Source of the DNA: Saprospiraceae bacterium
GTDB lineage: Bacteria > Bacteroidota > Bacteroidia > Chitinophagales > Saprospiraceae
Length of the DNA: 32,070 nt
NCBI GenBank assembly: GCA_015490715.1
Contig: WFXH01000068.1
Coordinates: forward strand, 1 to 32,070
Direction of reading: 5' to 3'
The translations under genes were made by a program, and so were the position numbers. Position 1 is the first letter of the stretch. The number at the start of each line of letters is the position of its first letter. Below are positions 3,381 to 29,569 of this stretch, piece after piece. Below the pieces are notes generated by a model. That model saw only the letters and a program-made list of their open reading frames with translations, searched no databases and was not told the origin of the DNA.

Positions 3381-5492
3381 TTAATAAAACTTAAAGCGAT
3401 TGTCCTCCACATCGGCCTTGTCGACGAGGGAGGGGAGGAGGTATTTGCTGACGCGTGTAGGATATTGCGAGGTGTTGATGCGTCGCCATGTGGCGAGGTT
3501 GTCGGGATCGGGGGCGATGTATTCTTCCACCTTTTTGATGACGTAATAGCCGCCGACTCCTTGCGAACCGCGTTGAGCGCCCTTAGCCAATCCGAAGAGG
3601 TTGCCCACCACGCGTGGTTCTTTGCCTTCTTTGCCAAAAAACTCAAACAGGAAAGTCACCTGATTGGCCGTGTCGATGGGTAGCTCAAACTTGTCGGCCG
3701 CTACTTGAAGATCAGCCGCACCGAGCTGCTCGGCAATGCGCTGGGCCTTCTTGCGATTGATGAGGATGGGCACTACCGATTCGCGCACCTCATCGACCGA
3801 GGCTTGCCCTTCGGGATAACTACCCGTCAATGCCGCAACGACAAATTTTTCGCGAAAGTTGAGGGGTGAGGTGAAAATGTACACCTCTGGAGATACATCG
3901 CCTACCTCCGTAGAGGGATCAAACGCCCAGCGCACGATTTCACGCGAAGACGACTCCGAACCAAGGGATCCAAGGCTGTGATCGTTCTTCTTCACCCCTT
4001 TGACGAGCTCGGTGCGTATGTCGTCCCTGTTGGCCAGGGCACTCTTGAGCGAGCTGTAATCTCGGTACTGCGTCATCAAGTCGACCATCAGGTCGTAAAT
4101 CGAATCTTGCGTGTGCTCACTGGGAATGATGTTTTCACGAATATAGGCCACGCGATAGCCCGTGTTGTCGTCGAGGGTGTACTTTCTATCGGTCACCTGT
4201 ACGAGGTGGAGGGCCTGATCCGTAGGCAAGATGTAGGTTTCACCGGGTTTGGCCTTAAAAAACACGATATTGGCTATGTTGGGATGGAGCTCGTTGTAGG
4301 CCTTAAAGCCCAAGTCGCCACCCTTGCCCAAGCCTTCGGGATTTTGGCTATAGCGGTTGGCAAGGCTGTCAAAGCGCTCCTTGCCTTCGTCGATGAGCTG
4401 TTTGAGGCTATCCAGCGTCGCTACGACGCGCTGATAATCCTGTTGGGTACGCACCGACATCGAGATTGCGCGCAAACGCACCGAGTCTGGAACCTTTTTG
4501 ACGTCGACGAGCTTGGCCAGGACGAAGGCGTTGTTGTGCTGGTACGGCCCCACCACATCGCCCACCTTCATGTGCCGAATCGAATCCCGCAAGGGCGGGT
4601 CGAGATAGTCGATGTAAAAGTAGCGCAGGGGATATTCGCCGTAATGGGTCGTCACAAAGAGCGAATCCTCTTCGGCCTGTATAAAATCGTTCTTGAGATC
4701 GAGCATGTGCTGGTACAGCTCCGCCGTATCCTTTGCTGTCGGTACGGCGACGTTGATGAAGAGTTCGACATCGCGCGTGGGATCTTTTTTATAATACAGC
4801 CCCGGGTTTTCTTCAATGTATTGCTGGATATCGTCGTCCGTCACCTGTACCTCAGCATCAGGGATGCGATCGTACGGCACTTTGACGTAGAGGGCGTCTG
4901 CTTTGTCGTTGTTTTGGTGAAAACGCCGCAATACGCGCCACCGGGGCATGTACATCCCTTTGGCGACGAGCTGGTTGAGCTTTTCTTCCAGGCGCTCTTT
5001 GATGATTTGTTTTTCCTGAAAGGCCCAGAAATTGCGAAACGTACCGGTGAGCGTGCCCTCTTCAATGCGTCGGCGATATTCCTCCAACAACTGGCGATCG
5101 ACTTGCCCTGTCTGTGGATTGCCAAGGTTTCGGATAACCACAGGGCTCAGGCGAGTACCGAATTGAAGCTCGCGCAACTCGTCCCTACCCACAGCCAGGC
5201 CTTCTTCATCGGCGATTTCATCCAAGATCGCCTTTTCAACCAAAAAGGAATAAATGTAATCCCTCGTCTGATAGATGTCTTGCGAGGAGCGGCTTAGCAC
5301 ATCTTCTGCCATCTGAAACTCTCGATAGTCGATCCGCTTGCCATCGACCTCAGCAAGGGTAAAATCCGTTCTTCCTCCGCCACCTCCAAAAAAATTGGAT
5401 TGGATGTCCATGATGATAAAACCCGCCAATCCAAGGCCCAGCAGAACGATGAGTATCCAGACGTTTTTTCGAATCTTACCAATGACTGCCAT
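3381..5492 (-). CDS. PpiD/SurA-type membrane-anchored peptidyl-prolyl isomerase
   Basis: About 703 residues. A short basic N-terminus (MAVIGKIRKN) leads into one transmembrane helix (about 10-29), a Gly-rich linker, a SurA_N-like helical chaperone region (about 45-200), a parvulin/rotamase domain at about 335-433 (with SLANRYSQNPEGLGKGGDLGF) and a long C-terminal part. Proteins built this way sit in the inner membrane facing the periplasm and help fold outer-membrane and secreted proteins. I chose ATG 5492 over GTG 5498: it gives the family-like MAVIGKIRK start and lies about 30 nt after a strong promoter at 5528-5558. A second isomerase domain is possible in the C-terminal half but I could not confirm one. 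The gene is divergent from fdhD. Confidence 0.9.
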   Translation of the reverse strand: MAVIGKIRKNVWILIVLLGLGLAGFIIMDIQSNFFGGGGGRTDFTLAEVDGKRIDYREFQMAEDVLSRSSQDIYQTRDYIYSFLVEKAILDEIADEEGLAVGRDELRELQFGTRLSPVVIRNLGNPQTGQVDRQLLEEYRRRIEEGTLTGTFRNFWAFQEKQIIKERLEEKLNQLVAKGMYMPRWRVLRRFHQNNDKADALYVKVPYDRIPDAEVQVTDDDIQQYIEENPGLYYKKDPTRDVELFINVAVPTAKDTAELYQHMLDLKNDFIQAEEDSLFVTTHYGEYPLRYFYIDYLDPPLRDSIRHMKVGDVVGPYQHNNAFVLAKLVDVKKVPDSVRLRAISMSVRTQQDYQRVVATLDSLKQLIDEGKERFDSLANRYSQNPEGLGKGGDLGFKAYNELHPNIANIVFFKAKPGETYILPTDQALHLVQVTDRKYTLDDNTGYRVAYIRENIIPSEHTQDSIYDLMVDLMTQYRDYSSLKSALANRDDIRTELVKGVKKNDHSLGSLGSESSSREIVRWAFDPSTEVGDVSPEVYIFTSPLNFREKFVVAALTGSYPEGQASVDEVRESVVPILINRKKAQRIAEQLGAADLQVAADKFELPIDTANQVTFLFEFFGKEGKEPRVVGNLFGLAKGAQRGSQGVGGYYVIKKVEEYIAPDPDNLATWRRINTSQYPTRVSKYLLPSLVDKADVEDNRFKFY

Positions 5493-23679: not shown

Positions 23680-23687
23680 TACCTTTG
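23680..23687 (+). promoter_or_regulatory. Promoter element of the B12 uptake operon
   Basis: TACCTTTG matches TAnnTTTG. The only nearby TTG is 12 nt upstream, too close for a normal -33. Transcription would start near 23691-23694, exactly where the riboswitch P1 stem begins. Confidence 0.6.
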
Positions 23688-23692
23688 CATTT

Positions 23693-23929
23693 GCGACAGT
23701 ACCTGCCTTCGGACAGGTGGAGCTCAACCGAAGGGACGAGCGAAGAGGGAAATCCGTGAAAATCGGATACTGTACCCGCAGCTGTAAGCCCGCCGACAGC
23801 AGTCGGTGCGCATGCATTCAACCACTGTTCGATCTCGAACGGGAAGGGCATGCCAAGGGGCAAGTCAGAAGACCTGCTGTCGCACTGTTGTATCACCGCG
23901 CTTTCGGGAGTTAAGGCTCGGTGAGGTAC
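23693..23929 (+). promoter_or_regulatory. Cobalamin (adenosylcobalamin-type) riboswitch
   Basis: A 7-bp P1 stem closes the aptamer: GCGACAG (23693-23699) pairs with CTGTCGC (23877-23883). Inside are a hairpin at 23701-23718, the conserved core AGGGAAATCCGTG with the AATCGGA arm (from about 23746), CCCGCAGCTGTAAG, and the B12-box-like AGAAGACCTGCTG at the 3' end. The order matches the E. coli btuB leader. Downstream, a second stem can form between TCACCG (23893-23898) and CGGTGA (23919-23924), extended by GTA/TAC; it has no T-run. This stem may be the expression platform. B12 binding should lower expression of the uptake operon. Confidence 0.88.
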
Positions 23930-24031
23930 GGGAATAGACCACTCGTCGATCGCTTATTCTTTCGTCCCTTCCCTACACTCACCCTTGACTCTCCGACAGG
24001 CACAAAGACCGAAGAAAAAACCAGCGCACAC

Positions 24032-25870
24032 GTGTTGCGACTTTCGACATATTGGCTGGCTCTATGCATCTGCCTCGCTGTGCAGCTCCTCACCGCCCAG
24101 CGAGCAGATACTACCATATCGCTCCCCCAGGCCGTGGTCCGTGCAGAGCGCACCTCACCTCTTGTCGCTAAATATCCCCTCCACCCATCTGCCAATCCCC
24201 AACACGGCCTGTCCGAACTCGCATCCAAAGGCCTCTTCACTATGCCCAGCTACGGCCCAGGCCAGCTCACAGGACTACGTGCCTATGGCCTTCCGTCCGC
24301 ACACACCACCGTCCAATGGATGGGGCTCACCCTCAACGACCCGCTCACAGGCCAAACCGACTTTTCCGAAGTCTATCCCATTCTCTTCAGCGACGAGCTA
24401 CAAATCCAATCCATCGGCCAACGAGGAGGCCTGCAGCTCGATCTGACACCGCGCCTGGCGTTTTCAAAATCCTCCATCAAGGGAAGCGGACACCTCACCG
24501 AGCGCTTCGGCCTCGGATGCTTCTCATCCGCCGACATTCGTCACCACAACAGCCGGGGAAGCATTCGATTCCTCAAGCTCACCAACACCAACCGTTATCG
24601 CATACCCCATCCTCAAGGTCCGCGCTATCAACGACACGCATCCAAAAACCTCTTCGGTGTCAGCGCGGCCATCTCTACGCCCATCGGCACCCGATCCCAT
24701 AGCACCGTGGCCGCCTTCTCCAATTCCGACCACCGTCAGATTCCGCCCACTATCGACCAAGAGGAAAACTCTTCGACCCTTTCCACCCAGCGCAAGGCCA
24801 TCGCCTTCGCCCTGCGACACGATGCCACAAGTGTTGCGACCCTTTCGCTTCAGGCCGGCACCATACACTACCGCATACGCTACAACGACACACCGCGACA
24901 AATCCGCTATCAAGCCCAGACCTTCGAGCAACAGCTCACCCCAGCCGTACGCCTCCAGCTCGGCAGACACATCTACACTCGCATCGAAATACCATGGCAA
25001 TATCAGCGGGCCCGATCGACGGGCTTCGTCGATGCGGCCACGCGATGGATTGCACGTCCAAACGCACACTTGACTATCGACCAGAAGAAATTTACCATGC
25101 ACATCACGGCTGGCGGGCTTATAACCACTCGTCAGCGCTTCCAATGGATAGGCCAATGGGACTTGTCTCGGTCTGTACTCCGCCATTGGTCCATCGCCCT
25201 GGGCATCAACCGCACGGTACGCCTGCCGAGCTTCAACGACCTATATTGGTTCGAAGGCGGCAATCCCGACCTCCAGACCGAACACGGCTTTGGCTCCAAT
25301 CTCGCCCTCGACTACCGCCCTGGTGAGCAATTGCACCTCCATGTCAACGGCTTCTTTCGACAGATCAACGATTTCATACAGTGGATCCCCCAAAGAGGCA
25401 TCTTCCGCGCCACACAAATACCGAGCATCCGCTCCTGGGGCGCTACCACCACCGCCACATCTCAAATCCATCCCAACCTGCGAATATCCGCCGTCTGGAC
25501 GTACACGCGCTGCATCTTTCTGCATAACCGCTTACCCAACGACGACATTCGCGGCAAACAACTCCTCTATGTGCCCTTGCATCAGGGAAGTGTCGAGGTA
25601 GAGACCGCGTTCGAGGATTGGACCTTCCAACTGTTGGTCACTGGTGCCACCGAACGATACATCACCACCGACAACAGCCGCGCTCTTCCTCCCTACCTGC
25701 TGGTACACGCCTCTGCCGAGTATGCCTTTCAATGGCGGAAAATCCCCATGCGAGCCACATTCTATGTCGAAAACCTGACCGATAGGTATTACGAACTCTA
25801 TTCGGGATGGCCCATGCCGGGACGTCGACTGCATGTTCGAATAACAGCTGAGTACGATTTTAAACACTAA
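24032..25870 (+). CDS. btuB: TonB-dependent outer-membrane receptor for cobalamin (BtuB-type)
   Basis: 612 residues from GTG 24032. The signal peptide (LSTYWLALCICLAVQLLTAQ) is followed by a short N-terminal tail with TonB-box-like TISLPQAVV, a plug domain (about 45-140, with PGQLTGLRAYGLPSAHTTVQWMG split by turns) and a 22-strand-type barrel with the closing strand RLHVRITAEYDF. Length fits BtuB, which is smaller than SusC-type receptors, and there is no carboxypeptidase-like N-terminal domain. The riboswitch upstream and the downstream DUF4465 and BtuG-like genes identify the ligand as B12. The frame extends back to GTG 23921, but that start would lie in the riboswitch stem and add a 37-residue tail before the signal peptide. 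Confidence 0.88.
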   Translation: MLRLSTYWLALCICLAVQLLTAQRADTTISLPQAVVRAERTSPLVAKYPLHPSANPQHGLSELASKGLFTMPSYGPGQLTGLRAYGLPSAHTTVQWMGLTLNDPLTGQTDFSEVYPILFSDELQIQSIGQRGGLQLDLTPRLAFSKSSIKGSGHLTERFGLGCFSSADIRHHNSRGSIRFLKLTNTNRYRIPHPQGPRYQRHASKNLFGVSAAISTPIGTRSHSTVAAFSNSDHRQIPPTIDQEENSSTLSTQRKAIAFALRHDATSVATLSLQAGTIHYRIRYNDTPRQIRYQAQTFEQQLTPAVRLQLGRHIYTRIEIPWQYQRARSTGFVDAATRWIARPNAHLTIDQKKFTMHITAGGLITTRQRFQWIGQWDLSRSVLRHWSIALGINRTVRLPSFNDLYWFEGGNPDLQTEHGFGSNLALDYRPGEQLHLHVNGFFRQINDFIQWIPQRGIFRATQIPSIRSWGATTTATSQIHPNLRISAVWTYTRCIFLHNRLPNDDIRGKQLLYVPLHQGSVEVETAFEDWTFQLLVTGATERYITTDNSRALPPYLLVHASAEYAFQWRKIPMRATFYVENLTDRYYELYSGWPMPGRRLHVRITAEYDFKH

Positions 25871-25877
25871 AAACTTA

Positions 25878-26873
25878 ATGCGTATGAAATGGTGCATTTA
25901 CTTACCACTGCTTGTCCTTTTCACCACTACGGGGTTACTTCGTGCCCAGATGGTAGCCGATTTCGAATCCCACGGGCTCGGCTTAGACACCTTTGCCAAC
26001 GGTGCAGACAGCAGCCGCGGGTTTTGGGAGCCATCCGAGCAAGACAGCACTTTGTGGTTTCCGACCGAGTACAATTTTGAGTACGGCTACTGGTCTGGAG
26101 GATGGGCTTTATCTACCATGCGCGACGACACCACACGCGGGTATACCAACTTGTATTCCGCCATCACAGCAGGCGGTGTGCAGTCCCCCACGTACGCCAT
26201 CGGCCAGCAAGGATCGAAAATTCACGTGCGCTCCCTCCATGCACTCAAGCCCCTCTCCGTCTACATCACCAACACAACCTATGCCTATTGGAGCATGAAA
26301 GAGGGCGATCAGTTTGCCAAAAAATTTGGCGGCGACGACGGTACCGACCCCGACTACTTCGTACTGCGCATCTACGGATACAAAGACGGCCACAAAGACA
26401 CCGTCCACTACGTCGAATTTTACTTGGCCGACTATCGCTTCGACGACAGCACCAAAGATTACATCGTCGACAGCTGGACGCGCGTGGATTTGTCACCTCT
26501 CGGCTATGTCGACAGCTTAGAGTTTGTGCTCAGCTCGTCCGATGTAGGCCCCTACGGCATCAACACCCCCCTGTTTTTCGCCATCGATAGCCTGACCTTC
26601 CAGGTGCAATCGACCTATGCCAGCAGTGTGGAAAAGCCCTTTGTGCTCCGCAGCTATCCCAACCCCGCCACGGATCAGCTGCAAGTCGAAATACCGCAAG
26701 CAGGTACCCTGATCATTGTCGATGCACAGGGGCAGCGGGTATGGCATAAAATCGTTGGCCCCGGTACACATCGGCTCTCTGTCCATCAGTGGACCAACGG
26801 AATGTACACCATACGATATCGGCCACAAGACGGTCCCCATATCTACGCGAAGCGCATAGTAAAATGGAGGTAA
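25878..26873 (+). CDS. DUF4465 surface protein with T9SS sorting domain
   Basis: 331 residues; ATG 25884 gives MKWCIYLPLL and is equally plausible. After the signal peptide (cut near LLRAQ) comes a DUF4465 domain (about 25-245), with FESHGLGLDTFANG, WSGGWALSTMRDDT, NTTYAYWSMKEGDQF, GDDGTDPDYFVLRIYG, VEFYLADYRF and the closing DSWTRVDLSPLGYVDSLEF. The C-terminal 70 residues are a T9SS type A sorting domain (SYPNPATDQLQVEIPQAG to RIVKW). DUF4465 proteins are regular members of Bacteroidota B12 uptake loci and are thought to be surface B12-capture factors; direct B12 binding here is inferred. It starts 7 nt after btuB. Confidence 0.85.
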   Translation: MRMKWCIYLPLLVLFTTTGLLRAQMVADFESHGLGLDTFANGADSSRGFWEPSEQDSTLWFPTEYNFEYGYWSGGWALSTMRDDTTRGYTNLYSAITAGGVQSPTYAIGQQGSKIHVRSLHALKPLSVYITNTTYAYWSMKEGDQFAKKFGGDDGTDPDYFVLRIYGYKDGHKDTVHYVEFYLADYRFDDSTKDYIVDSWTRVDLSPLGYVDSLEFVLSSSDVGPYGINTPLFFAIDSLTFQVQSTYASSVEKPFVLRSYPNPATDQLQVEIPQAGTLIIVDAQGQRVWHKIVGPGTHRLSVHQWTNGMYTIRYRPQDGPHIYAKRIVKWR

Positions 26874-26935
26874 TGTTCCACCGTGTCCGAATATCAAACG
26901 TCTATCAGGTAGAGGAACTAAGCGCCATTATTGGG

Positions 26936-27988
26936 ATGAATTATCGGCTCGCCTCCCTCAAAGTGAGGGTGGGCGGGCTATTCTCTTATGGTAAGGCCGT
27001 GTGGTGGAACATCCTCCTACTTTTGTTTGGTACGGTCTCCACGTATGGGCAATATCCCCCGCCGGCAGGACAGCCGGGCAGTACGGCCATCTACAAGGAC
27101 AGCATCATTATCGAGCGATGGGCCACTGCGTGTACCGTCCAGCGCGGATGGCGCGACATTCGGACCAAAGACGACACGACTTCCTTTGGCACGCCTGCCA
27201 ATGCCTTAGGCCCCGCCGACGGCACCATCGTCTCCTTAGGGGACAGCGGCATTGCACTTCTCTTCTTCGACCCGCCCATTAGCGACCGCCAGGGGCCCGA
27301 TTTTGCCGTGTTTGAAAACGCCTTTAACGACTCCTTCCTCGAGCTGGCCCATGTTGAGGTCAGCAGCGACGGTATCCACTTTTTGCGCTTTCCCTCCGTG
27401 TCGCTGACCGATACCGGCCAGCAGGTGGGCAGTTTTGGCACCGTAGACGCGCGCAAAATCCACAACCTCGCGGGCAAATACCGCGTCTTTTACGGCACCC
27501 CCTTCGACCTCGCCGACTTGCCCGACAGCTCCATCTGGGATCGATACGCCGTGCGCTACATCCGCCTCATCGACGTCGTCGGTGTCGTGCGCGGCCCACA
27601 TGCCACTTTTGACAGCCGAGGCGTACCCATCAACGATCCCTTCCCCACGCCCTACCATACGGGTGGCTTCGATCTCGATGCCGTGGCTGTACTTAATCCC
27701 GAAATCATCGCAACACAACAGCCCTCCTACTCCTATAGCCTCAAACTATACCCCAGTCCCAATGGCTACCTACACATCCACACCCAAAATCTCAACATCC
27801 TCAAAATGATGCTCTGCCATACAAGTGGATGGTCCATCGATGTCCACCCCTCCCACATCATTGCGACTGAGGATCACACCACCGAATGGCTCGTCGATAG
27901 TCGCTACTTACCTCCGGGTCATTATTTTATACTCGCCTACACACGCGACAATCAAATCATCCGACGATCATGGATAAAACTCCGTTAA
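26936..27988 (+). CDS. Surface protein of the B12 locus with T9SS sorting domain
   Basis: 350 residues from ATG 26936; GTG 26999 (MWWNILLLLFG) is an alternative. The signal peptide ends near TYGQ. The main domain (about 45-280) has GTPANALGPADGTIVSLGDSG, GPDFAVFENAFNDSFLELAHVEVSSDGIHF, GTVDARKIHNLAGKYRV, GTPFDL and the closing GGFDLDAVAVLN. This arrangement is that of secreted proteins regularly found next to DUF4465 in B12 loci; it looks like a carbohydrate-binding-type jelly roll, but the ligand is unknown. The C-terminus (LYPSPNGYLHI to SWIKL) is a T9SS sorting domain. It overlaps the BtuG-like gene by 19 nt. A GC-rich hairpin at 26950-26975 falls in its first codons. Confidence 0.75.
   Translation: MNYRLASLKVRVGGLFSYGKAVWWNILLLLFGTVSTYGQYPPPAGQPGSTAIYKDSIIIERWATACTVQRGWRDIRTKDDTTSFGTPANALGPADGTIVSLGDSGIALLFFDPPISDRQGPDFAVFENAFNDSFLELAHVEVSSDGIHFLRFPSVSLTDTGQQVGSFGTVDARKIHNLAGKYRVFYGTPFDLADLPDSSIWDRYAVRYIRLIDVVGVVRGPHATFDSRGVPINDPFPTPYHTGGFDLDAVAVLNPEIIATQQPSYSYSLKLYPSPNGYLHIHTQNLNILKMMLCHTSGWSIDVHPSHIIATEDHTTEWLVDSRYLPPGHYFILAYTRDNQIIRRSWIKLR
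26950..26975 (+). repeat. GC-rich hairpin between DUF4465 gene and next gene
   Basis: CCCTCA, loop AAG, TGAGGG, flanked by CGCC and GGCG with a small bulge, give a 10-bp stem. No T-run follows. It could be a partial terminator or an RNA-stabilising stem after the DUF4465 gene. Confidence 0.45.
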
Positions 27989-29049
27989 GAGCCCTACTTT
28001 TCCGTACGTTGGCGGCCGCCATGGCGTCTTTGCTCCTCGTCTATGGCTGCATAAAGCCTAAGCCAAATCCGCCGCAAACAGCAGTCGCAGCCGTCATCTT
28101 GGTGGGTAATGAGGGGACGTTTCAATTCAACAACGCCTCCATAGGCGTATGGGATGAGACCACCAATCAATACCTCGGTGAACGCTTCCGCCAGGCCAAT
28201 CAGGCACAGCTTGGCGACATACTCCAACACATGTGGATCGACGGCGATCGACTGTGGCTGGTGGTCAACAACAGCCAGAAGATCGAAATCGTCGACCGCC
28301 GAGACTTTCGACGCATCGCCACCATTCGTCCCATCCACTCACCGCGATACGTCGCACCCGCTTCCGATACGACCGTTTGGGTGTCCCAAATCTGGGAAGA
28401 CAGTATCGTCGTCGTCCATCGACAGCGCTTCGAAGTTATGTACAAACTTCCCTTTCCACCGGGTTGGAGCGAAGACCTCCTCCCCATCGACCAGTGGATG
28501 TGGATCTCGAGCCCGTCGCTCTACACGGGCCCTGCTCAGCACCATCTCTACCGCATGCATATCGATCCACCCCATACCTTGGACAGTATTGCCGTCGGAG
28601 CATCGCCTACTCGACTCCTTCAGAGCGATGACACGACCATATGGGTGCTCTGCACAGGTCACTCCAATTCGCGCCTTCCGCCTAGCCTCTACGCAGTACA
28701 TGCCCATACATTTGAGGTGATGCACGAGCACAGCTTGCCCGTCCACACCGGTGCATTAGGCTCTGGTATGTGCTTCGACCCCAATAGTGGTAATTTGTAC
28801 ATCCTCTACGGCGATGTCTTCGTTTTAGGCACTTTGGCATCATCACCACAAATCAAAGAATGGCTACCTGCTCGAGGGAAGAGCTACTACAGCATCGGTT
28901 GGCTCACCGATATGGGAATTTTGCTCCTCGGCGACGCCGTCGACTTCGTCCAGCGCGGTGTTGTGGAAATGCGCAAGCCCCCCGATACGACACTACTCAA
29001 CAGCTTCAGAGCCGGCATCATACCATCACTATTCATTCCACACCAATAA
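27970..29049 (+). CDS. BtuG-like surface lipoprotein (YncE/DUF5074-type propeller)
   Basis: 359 residues. The lipoprotein signal ends in LLLVYGC with acceptor Cys27. The rest shows repeating blades of a seven-bladed propeller: LVGNEGTFQFNNASIGVWD, RLWLVVNNSQKIEIVDRRDFRRIATI, SPRYVAPASDTTVWVSQIWEDSIVVV, WMWISSPS, TTIWVLCTGHSN, GSGMCFDPNSGNLYILYGD. The NEG-x-F-x-x-x-NASI opening and VVNNSQKIE block are shared with DUF5074 proteins and with BtuG, which in Bacteroides thetaiotaomicron binds B12 very tightly and caps BtuB. The operon context fits this. It overlaps the previous gene by 19 nt. It is the last gene of the operon. Confidence 0.82.
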   Translation: MDKTPLRALLFRTLAAAMASLLLVYGCIKPKPNPPQTAVAAVILVGNEGTFQFNNASIGVWDETTNQYLGERFRQANQAQLGDILQHMWIDGDRLWLVVNNSQKIEIVDRRDFRRIATIRPIHSPRYVAPASDTTVWVSQIWEDSIVVVHRQRFEVMYKLPFPPGWSEDLLPIDQWMWISSPSLYTGPAQHHLYRMHIDPPHTLDSIAVGASPTRLLQSDDTTIWVLCTGHSNSRLPPSLYAVHAHTFEVMHEHSLPVHTGALGSGMCFDPNSGNLYILYGDVFVLGTLASSPQIKEWLPARGKSYYSIGWLTDMGILLLGDAVDFVQRGVVEMRKPPDTTLLNSFRAGIIPSLFIPHQ

Positions 29050-29179: not shown

Positions 29180-29569
29180 ATGATGAATAGAAGAGCTACA
29201 CTTTTCAAAGCTGGTCTGCTATTGATGCTCATGACGCCTCTGCTTTACACCTCATGCAAGAAGGACAAGTGCATCGACGAGGTGCTCGGCACGTACAAGG
29301 GGACGGAATCTTGTCCTGGGGTTAACTCCAACCTGACCTTTATCGTCACGATAGGAGCGGAGGAAAACTCTGTCGTCTTCAATGTCCAGGGGACATCCAT
29401 CTCCTTTAAGGGTACACTCAACGAAGACTGTTCGGTTATCAACATTCCGAGCCAAAACATCCCTGGCATAGGCTCCGTCAATGGTTCATTTAGCATATCC
29501 GGTATCAACATGACAGGTAACCTCACATATCCCCTGGGTACCTGCTCGTACAGCATGACCAGGCAGTAA
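29180..29569 (+). CDS. Small lipoprotein, lipocalin-like size, unrecognised
   Basis: 129 residues from ATG 29180 (ATG 29183 also possible). The signal ends in LLYTSC with acceptor Cys26, followed by KKDK, which may act as a surface-export signal as in other Bacteroidota. The mature part is about 100 residues of short beta strands (LGTYKGTESC, NLTFIVTIG, SVVFNVQGTSISFKGTL, VNGSFSISGINMTGNLTY), rich in Gly, Ser, Asn and Thr, with four Cys in all after the acceptor that could form disulfides. No family is recognised. TATCTTTA near 29150 resembles a -7 promoter element. It stands alone between the B12 operon and copA. Confidence 0.65.
   Translation: MMNRRATLFKAGLLLMLMTPLLYTSCKKDKCIDEVLGTYKGTESCPGVNSNLTFIVTIGAEENSVVFNVQGTSISFKGTLNEDCSVINIPSQNIPGIGSVNGSFSISGINMTGNLTYPLGTCSYSMTRQ

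Follow-up and report, generated by a model that had tools for sequence, protein, structure and literature searches.

The closest described relatives of the locus considered here are the cobamide-capture systems of Bacteroides thetaiotaomicron (B. theta), in which the TonB-dependent receptor BtuB works with the propeller protein BtuG (structures 8bmx and 8blw; PMC10404256). One of these propellers, BtuG1, also carries a BtuH domain (PMC10404256). The available account of BtuH, a surface lipoprotein represented by BtuH2 (7biz), describes an uneven spread among gut Bacteroidetes and a B12 domain without known structural homologues (PMC8941943). Ligand orientation and a BtuG-BtuH fusion led to the proposal of a relay in B. 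theta that runs from BtuJ, a DUF4465 protein (BtuJ1/BtuJ2; 9fct, 9i2l, 9hmu), through BtuH to BtuBG (PMC12751083). An operon of a Saprospiraceae bacterium (GenBank assembly GCA_015490715.1) carries genes for all four of these component types. It lies on contig WFXH01000068.1, a stretch of 32,070 nucleotides that was analysed whole (the window) and that belongs to a 2.45-Mb genome of 98.58% completeness. A cobalamin riboswitch is followed by BtuB, a DUF4465 protein, a third protein termed P3, and a BtuG-type propeller. As an operon it represents a variation on a system already described; the new elements are the relationship of P3 to BtuH, the spread of P3, and its fusions. P3 appears distantly related to the BtuH B12-binding domain, as judged from the agreement of a sequence profile with a structure model.

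As a single sequence, P3 has no match in Pfam, NCBIfam or the Protein Data Bank (PDB), and a first profile (A1) returned from the PDB only tails of the type IX secretion system (T9SS) and two weak unrelated chains. A profile built from 32 P3 domains of near and remote members, searched against 177,635 PDB sequences, gave just two matches at E-values up to 10: 8blw_B (BtuG1) at 2.8e-5 and 7biz_A (BtuH2) at 0.0021. Twelve genome-derived BtuH domains aligned to the P3 profile in hhalign at 94.3% (1e-7, 95 columns) and to the near-family P3 profile alone at 63% (7e-5); the control pairings (BtuH with DUF4465, two P3 profiles with DUF4465, BtuH with BtuG) scored 0.06-0.49%. Genome G400 also has a P3-superfamily protein that a BtuH2 fragment matches directly (4.7e-4, 31% identity). 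The idea that P3 is a DUF4465 variant, raised by a TP[FY] motif near the C-terminal end of both, was dropped on the hhalign scores (0.49% and 0.18%), and locus L196, tried as a BtuG1-type fusion through which BtuH sequences might be reached, turned out not to be such a fusion.

The aligned region includes residues that touch the ligand in BtuH2. The Asn and Phe of the FENxF motif of P3 fall on positions 299 and 301 of the 7biz_A chain, which an offset of +100 converts to Asn399 and Phe401 (the same offset places a Gln at 333); these two residues contact the phosphate side and the lower ligand of B12 (PMC8941943). BtuH2 Gln333 itself falls where the near P3 members align poorly. In two P3 alignments, Asn90 (domain numbering) is conserved in 68/68 and 32/32 sequences and Phe92 in 64/68 and 31/32. 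Alignment A3 holds 64 of 73 sequences offered, four long fusions and three near-duplicates having been left out beforehand; A4 holds 67 of 79, with L082 lacking the motif; and A5 combines 17 of 22 remote with 14 near sequences picked by hand.

Structure models point the same way. AlphaFold models of mature P3 and of its N-terminal domain (mean predicted local distance difference test scores, pLDDT, of 91.6 and 96.6) were aligned with VIA to 997 and 991 PDB chains, respectively; VIA ranks Foldseek-proposed chains only, so families absent from the Foldseek list are not excluded. The top two entries for both models were 7biz (Z 12.2 and 12.4) and 8blw_B (Z 11.1 and 11.3), and the row after these BtuH-domain entries stood at Z 9.6 and 9.9. 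The predicted N-domain aligns with 7biz_A over 157 residues at a root-mean-square deviation of 3.4. In the N-domain list, the row after the BtuH-domain entries is the carbohydrate-binding module (CBM32) of AlyQ, a protein whose modest similarity to BtuH was pointed out by the BtuH2 authors themselves (PMC8941943). P3 also differs from BtuH: its domain is shorter (about 220 residues versus about 250-280), no PKD domains were seen, and the second half cannot be aligned by sequence. The first-pass annotation had presented P3 as a protein without a known role; P3 does have a known relative in BtuH. The companion suggestion, that P3 may add another B12-binding component, is now well supported as a prediction by homology and context.

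The genomic context was followed through three sets of genomes. Among related genomes, 22 of 119 (the present one included) have a P3 match. A set of named genomes comprises the best 80 of at least 568 confirmed candidates, selected solely for their similarity to P3; contig ends truncate many of these loci. A phylum-wide search with profile A1 matched 188 of 296 genomes; its full count was not used because many matches span the T9SS tail alone, and only 8 matches below 1e-100 and 22 remote ones were retained. Riboswitches at the named loci were sought with a covariance model built from 14 examples, which replaced a pattern search and acts mainly as a sequence profile because its structure has only 19 pairs. 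This model places a riboswitch in 57 of the 80 named loci, always on the P3 strand (weakly in L053, E 0.017), which makes 57 matches over the 1.07 Mb that the P3 loci span, against a single RF00174 match in the entire 2.45-Mb genome of the present bacterium. BtuB or BtuG lies on the P3 strand in 62/80 and DUF4465 in 26/80; altogether, 74 named loci have a riboswitch (56 strong ones counted) or a same-strand BtuB, BtuG or DUF4465 gene. Apart from the window, 15 of 21 related-genome loci are linked to B12, twelve by a riboswitch, L041 by a BtuG-like gene, and L032 and L040 through cobT and cobS (assigned by Pfam in L032 and by similarity in L040). For 18 of the 22 remote homologues, a BtuB or BtuG gene lies no more than about 1.5 kb away. 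The complete order riboswitch-BtuB-DUF4465-P3-BtuG recurs in L025, L026, L031, L034, L035 and L038, and a same-genus relative, the Saprospiraceae metagenome-assembled genome JALWKB010000188.1, has a P3 of 91% identity. No clear P3 was found in eleven loci that have BtuG.

In seven proteins P3 and DUF4465 are fused, in both domain orders: DUF4465 comes first in L044 (two copies), L076 and L103, and P3 first in L099, L112, L113 and L123. All but L076 end in a recognized T9SS tail. Such fusions are the link that the BtuJ-BtuH-BtuBG relay proposal predicts, and as single chains they allow the proposed hand-over of cobamide to be tested directly.

Taken together, the sequence evidence and the analogy with B. 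theta make it probable that this is a riboswitch-run capture operon in which P3 binds cobamides and hands them on from the DUF4465 protein to the BtuG-BtuB pair. Under cobamide scarcity the cell would produce BtuB, the BtuG lid that covers it, and another two surface proteins, and the riboswitch would shut the operon once cobamide suffices. The BtuJ-type DUF4465 protein would be exported via the T9SS, and P3 would most likely leave by the same route. P3 would then most likely hold cobamides from the nucleotide-loop side through its conserved Asn-x-Phe pair and serve as a BtuH-like middle station, presumably receiving ligand from the DUF4465 protein and delivering it to BtuG-BtuB.

Several observations weigh against this account. 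Foldseek returned no match below 0.001 for the P3 domain model and ranked BtuG1 fifteenth; with the whole P3 model, neither BtuH chain was within the top 50. The sequence alignment of P3 with BtuH extends only through the first half of the domain, stopping before BtuH2 Tyr510, Trp511, Trp577 and His476, which could not be placed in P3. No B12 gene occurs in the stretch seen at 6/80 named loci, 6/21 related loci (L027, L028, L033, L036, L042, L043) or 4/22 remote homologues. The P3 tail scores just 4.7 bits with a hidden Markov model built from the tails of P3 relatives, and no fewer than 8 of 2000 shuffled versions of this tail score higher. The DUF4465 protein lacks the hallmark tyrosine of the HI loop, its NTPLFF aligning to NTPSYF. 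A BtuC-type permease (PF01032, FecCD) was not found in the 98.6% complete genome by a search that was positive in 13 of 14 control genomes.

Three other explanations were weighed. It is unlikely that the operon handles a cobamide or precursor other than cobalamin, such as cobinamide, with the preference set by P3: the gene adjoins cobT and cobS in L032, with similar genes in L040 and L124, but nothing in the sequence tells ligands apart, and BtuH2 is described as contacting mainly parts common to all cobamides (PMC8941943). Quite unlikely is a purely structural part for P3, as a BtuH relative that has lost cobamide binding and instead docks to BtuBG or the DUF4465 protein or helps to open the lid; strong linkage and fusions would follow from this too, and it would suit the aromatic contacts of BtuH2 that could not be placed in P3, but near and remote members alike keep the B12-contacting Asn-x-Phe pair. 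Very unlikely is a carbohydrate-binding surface module of the CBM32 or F5/8 type C kind, co-regulated with B12 genes by chance, for although such domains follow BtuH in VIA (Z 8 to 9.9) and lead in Foldseek, BtuH chains align over 157-160 residues at higher Z against about 120-140 for the CBM rows, the sequence profile matches BtuH only, the P3 loci are linked to B12 genes, and BtuH shares the CBM resemblance itself (AlyQ; PMC8941943).

On the reading of P3 as a cobamide-binding relay protein, its anchoring would depart from that of BtuH. The signal peptide region contains no Cys by eye, so the surface-lipoprotein feature of BtuH is absent, and for this reason P3 is called BtuH-related rather than BtuH; it is most likely secreted rather than lipidated. 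A recognizable Por_Secre_tail ends 17 of 22 aligned family members at the position of the P3 tail, which makes a divergent T9SS tail on P3 likely. The T9SS translocon gene sprA, the one T9SS gene looked at, is present in the genome (TIGR04189, 2128.7 bits against a cut-off of 200). The first-pass annotation had assigned T9SS sorting domains to two of the three surface proteins; this holds for the DUF4465 protein, and for P3 neither Pfam (E up to 1), NCBIfam (E up to 0.1) nor the tail model recognizes such a domain.

The remaining parts of the operon agree with their earlier identification. The riboswitch matches RF00174 over model positions 1-189 of 189, far above the cut-off of 31.5 bits, and the four genes follow one another in the same orientation, 7 and 62 bases apart at the first two junctions, with P3 and BtuG overlapping by 19 bases. 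The claim of a riboswitch-led B12-capture operon is upheld. The closest solved relatives of the TonB-dependent barrel are Bacteroides BtuB chains (8bmx_C), and those of the propeller are BtuG chains (8bmx_D), both partners standing in one operon, as in the B. theta transporters (PMC10404256). The barrel reaches 29.6 bits with the NCBIfam BtuB model TIGR01779, below its cut-off of 599.7, and owes its name to the Bacteroides chain matches and the gene context; its GTG start was picked by eye on the signal peptide, in a reading frame open from 23921. The propeller falls under the Pfam DUF5074 cut-off (21.7 bits against 27.2). By eye, its N-terminus has a lipobox-like LLVYGC but, in contrast to B. 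theta BtuG, no obvious acidic export signal past the lipobox Cys (CIKPKPNP). A promoter and terminator scan gave no usable excess over shuffles.

The DUF4465 protein passes Pfam PF14717 with 161.8 bits (cut-off 25), and its tail passes both Por_Secre_tail (5.2e-7, 30.3 bits against 27) and TIGR04183 (2.7e-7, 30.5 bits against 23). This tail stands in place of the lipid anchor of BtuJ1/BtuJ2, as published for part of the family: 229 of 824 IPR027828 sequences have IPR026444 and a further 88 have IPR013424 (PMC12751083). B12 binding has likewise been published for eight divergent DUF4465 proteins (PMC13398666), and neither property is new here. The HI-loop tyrosine (Tyr245 in BtuJ1) is described as universal in DUF4465 in one source (PMC12751083) and as kept in 97% of homologues in another (PMC13398666). 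A pattern count over 38 DUF4465 domains at P3 loci gave 18 Tyr, 19 Phe and 1 Leu, and the first DUF4465 domain of the L044 fusion reads NTPLFF, as in the window.

Five B12-binding-domain matches in the genome suggest that the cell uses cobamides. That no BtuC-type permease was detected sets the genome apart from B. theta, and a DUF6580 membrane protein (L216:6836-7840, minus strand; Pfam 9.6e-42) is a candidate cobamide importer because P3 has DUF6580 or similar genes nearby in five loci (L032, L080, L112, L113, L123); no recognized B12 gene surrounds the DUF6580 gene of the present genome. The open-licence literature searched yielded no paper on P3, T9SS-borne BtuH relatives or DUF6580. A wider proposal joins these strands and, as a whole, is tentative and rather doubtful: P3 would found an unannotated BtuH-related family across much of Bacteroidota, T9SS-bearing species would release or display it as a cobamide carrier, the DUF4465 fusions would be natural one-chain BtuJ-to-BtuH relays, and the inner membrane would be crossed here by a non-BtuC importer, with DUF6580 as the candidate. 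If the occurrence of the P3 family beside BtuB/BtuG in many environmental members holds true, BtuH-type capture would become a general trait of Bacteroidota, and a gene left blank by Pfam and NCBIfam would receive its first annotation.

Table 1. Features of the capture operon, in window coordinates.
Feature	Coordinates	Strand	Evidence
Cobalamin riboswitch aptamer (RF00174)	23698..23894	+	cmscan, 88.4 bits
BtuB-type TonB-dependent receptor	24032..25870	+	PF00593 2.1e-19; PDB 8bmx_C 8.4e-30
DUF4465 (BtuJ-type) protein, T9SS type A tail	25878..26873	+	PF14717 2.7e-47; TIGR04183; 9hmu_A 2.8e-20
HI loop of DUF4465 domain, NTPLFF, Phe for BtuJ1 Tyr245	26562..26579	+	Alignment to 9fct/9qpm
T9SS sorting domain of DUF4465 protein	26655..26840	+	Por_Secre_tail, residues 260-321
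P3, BtuH-related protein with signal peptide, without lipobox Cys (by eye)	26936..27988	+	
P3 N-domain, BtuH-like	27050..27706	+	AlphaFold2 pLDDT 96.6; VIA Z 12.4 to 7biz_A; profile matches 8blw_B, 7biz_A
F-E-N-A-F motif of P3	27311..27325	+	Asn90/Phe92 (domain numbering) align with BtuH2 Asn399/Phe401
P3 C-terminal beta domain, sited like T9SS tails of relatives	27734..27985	+	Position in relatives; model
BtuG-type seven-bladed propeller lipoprotein	27970..29049	+	8bmx_D 6.9e-36, residues 39-355

Other genes accompany these operons. In the window, BtuG is followed by a small lipoprotein-like gene (29180-29569) without a Pfam family, which among the 21 related loci is shared with L025, of the same genus, alone. 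Among the additional genes close to P3, the largest cluster (L120:459-1784 and relatives, 32 loci in all) encodes what is, by eye, a propeller with a T9SS-like tail. A small Cys-rich DUF5522/CWC gene adjoins P3 in four places (L032:10358-10705, L029:8949-9275, L037:1828-2163 and L139:1438-2478), and in L139 the DUF5522 domain and P3 share one open frame. In L190, L192, L193 and L194, BtuB-BtuG has in its vicinity a gene for a protein of about 1200 residues that resembles a B12-dependent ribonucleotide reductase. Loci L090 and L091 are labelled Alphaproteobacteria and Saccharospirillaceae, yet they resemble Bacteroidota P3 operons and are perhaps mis-binned. In L041, P3 is flanked by two Acido-Lenti-1 RNA matches on the minus strand (3844-3889 and 4879-4924).

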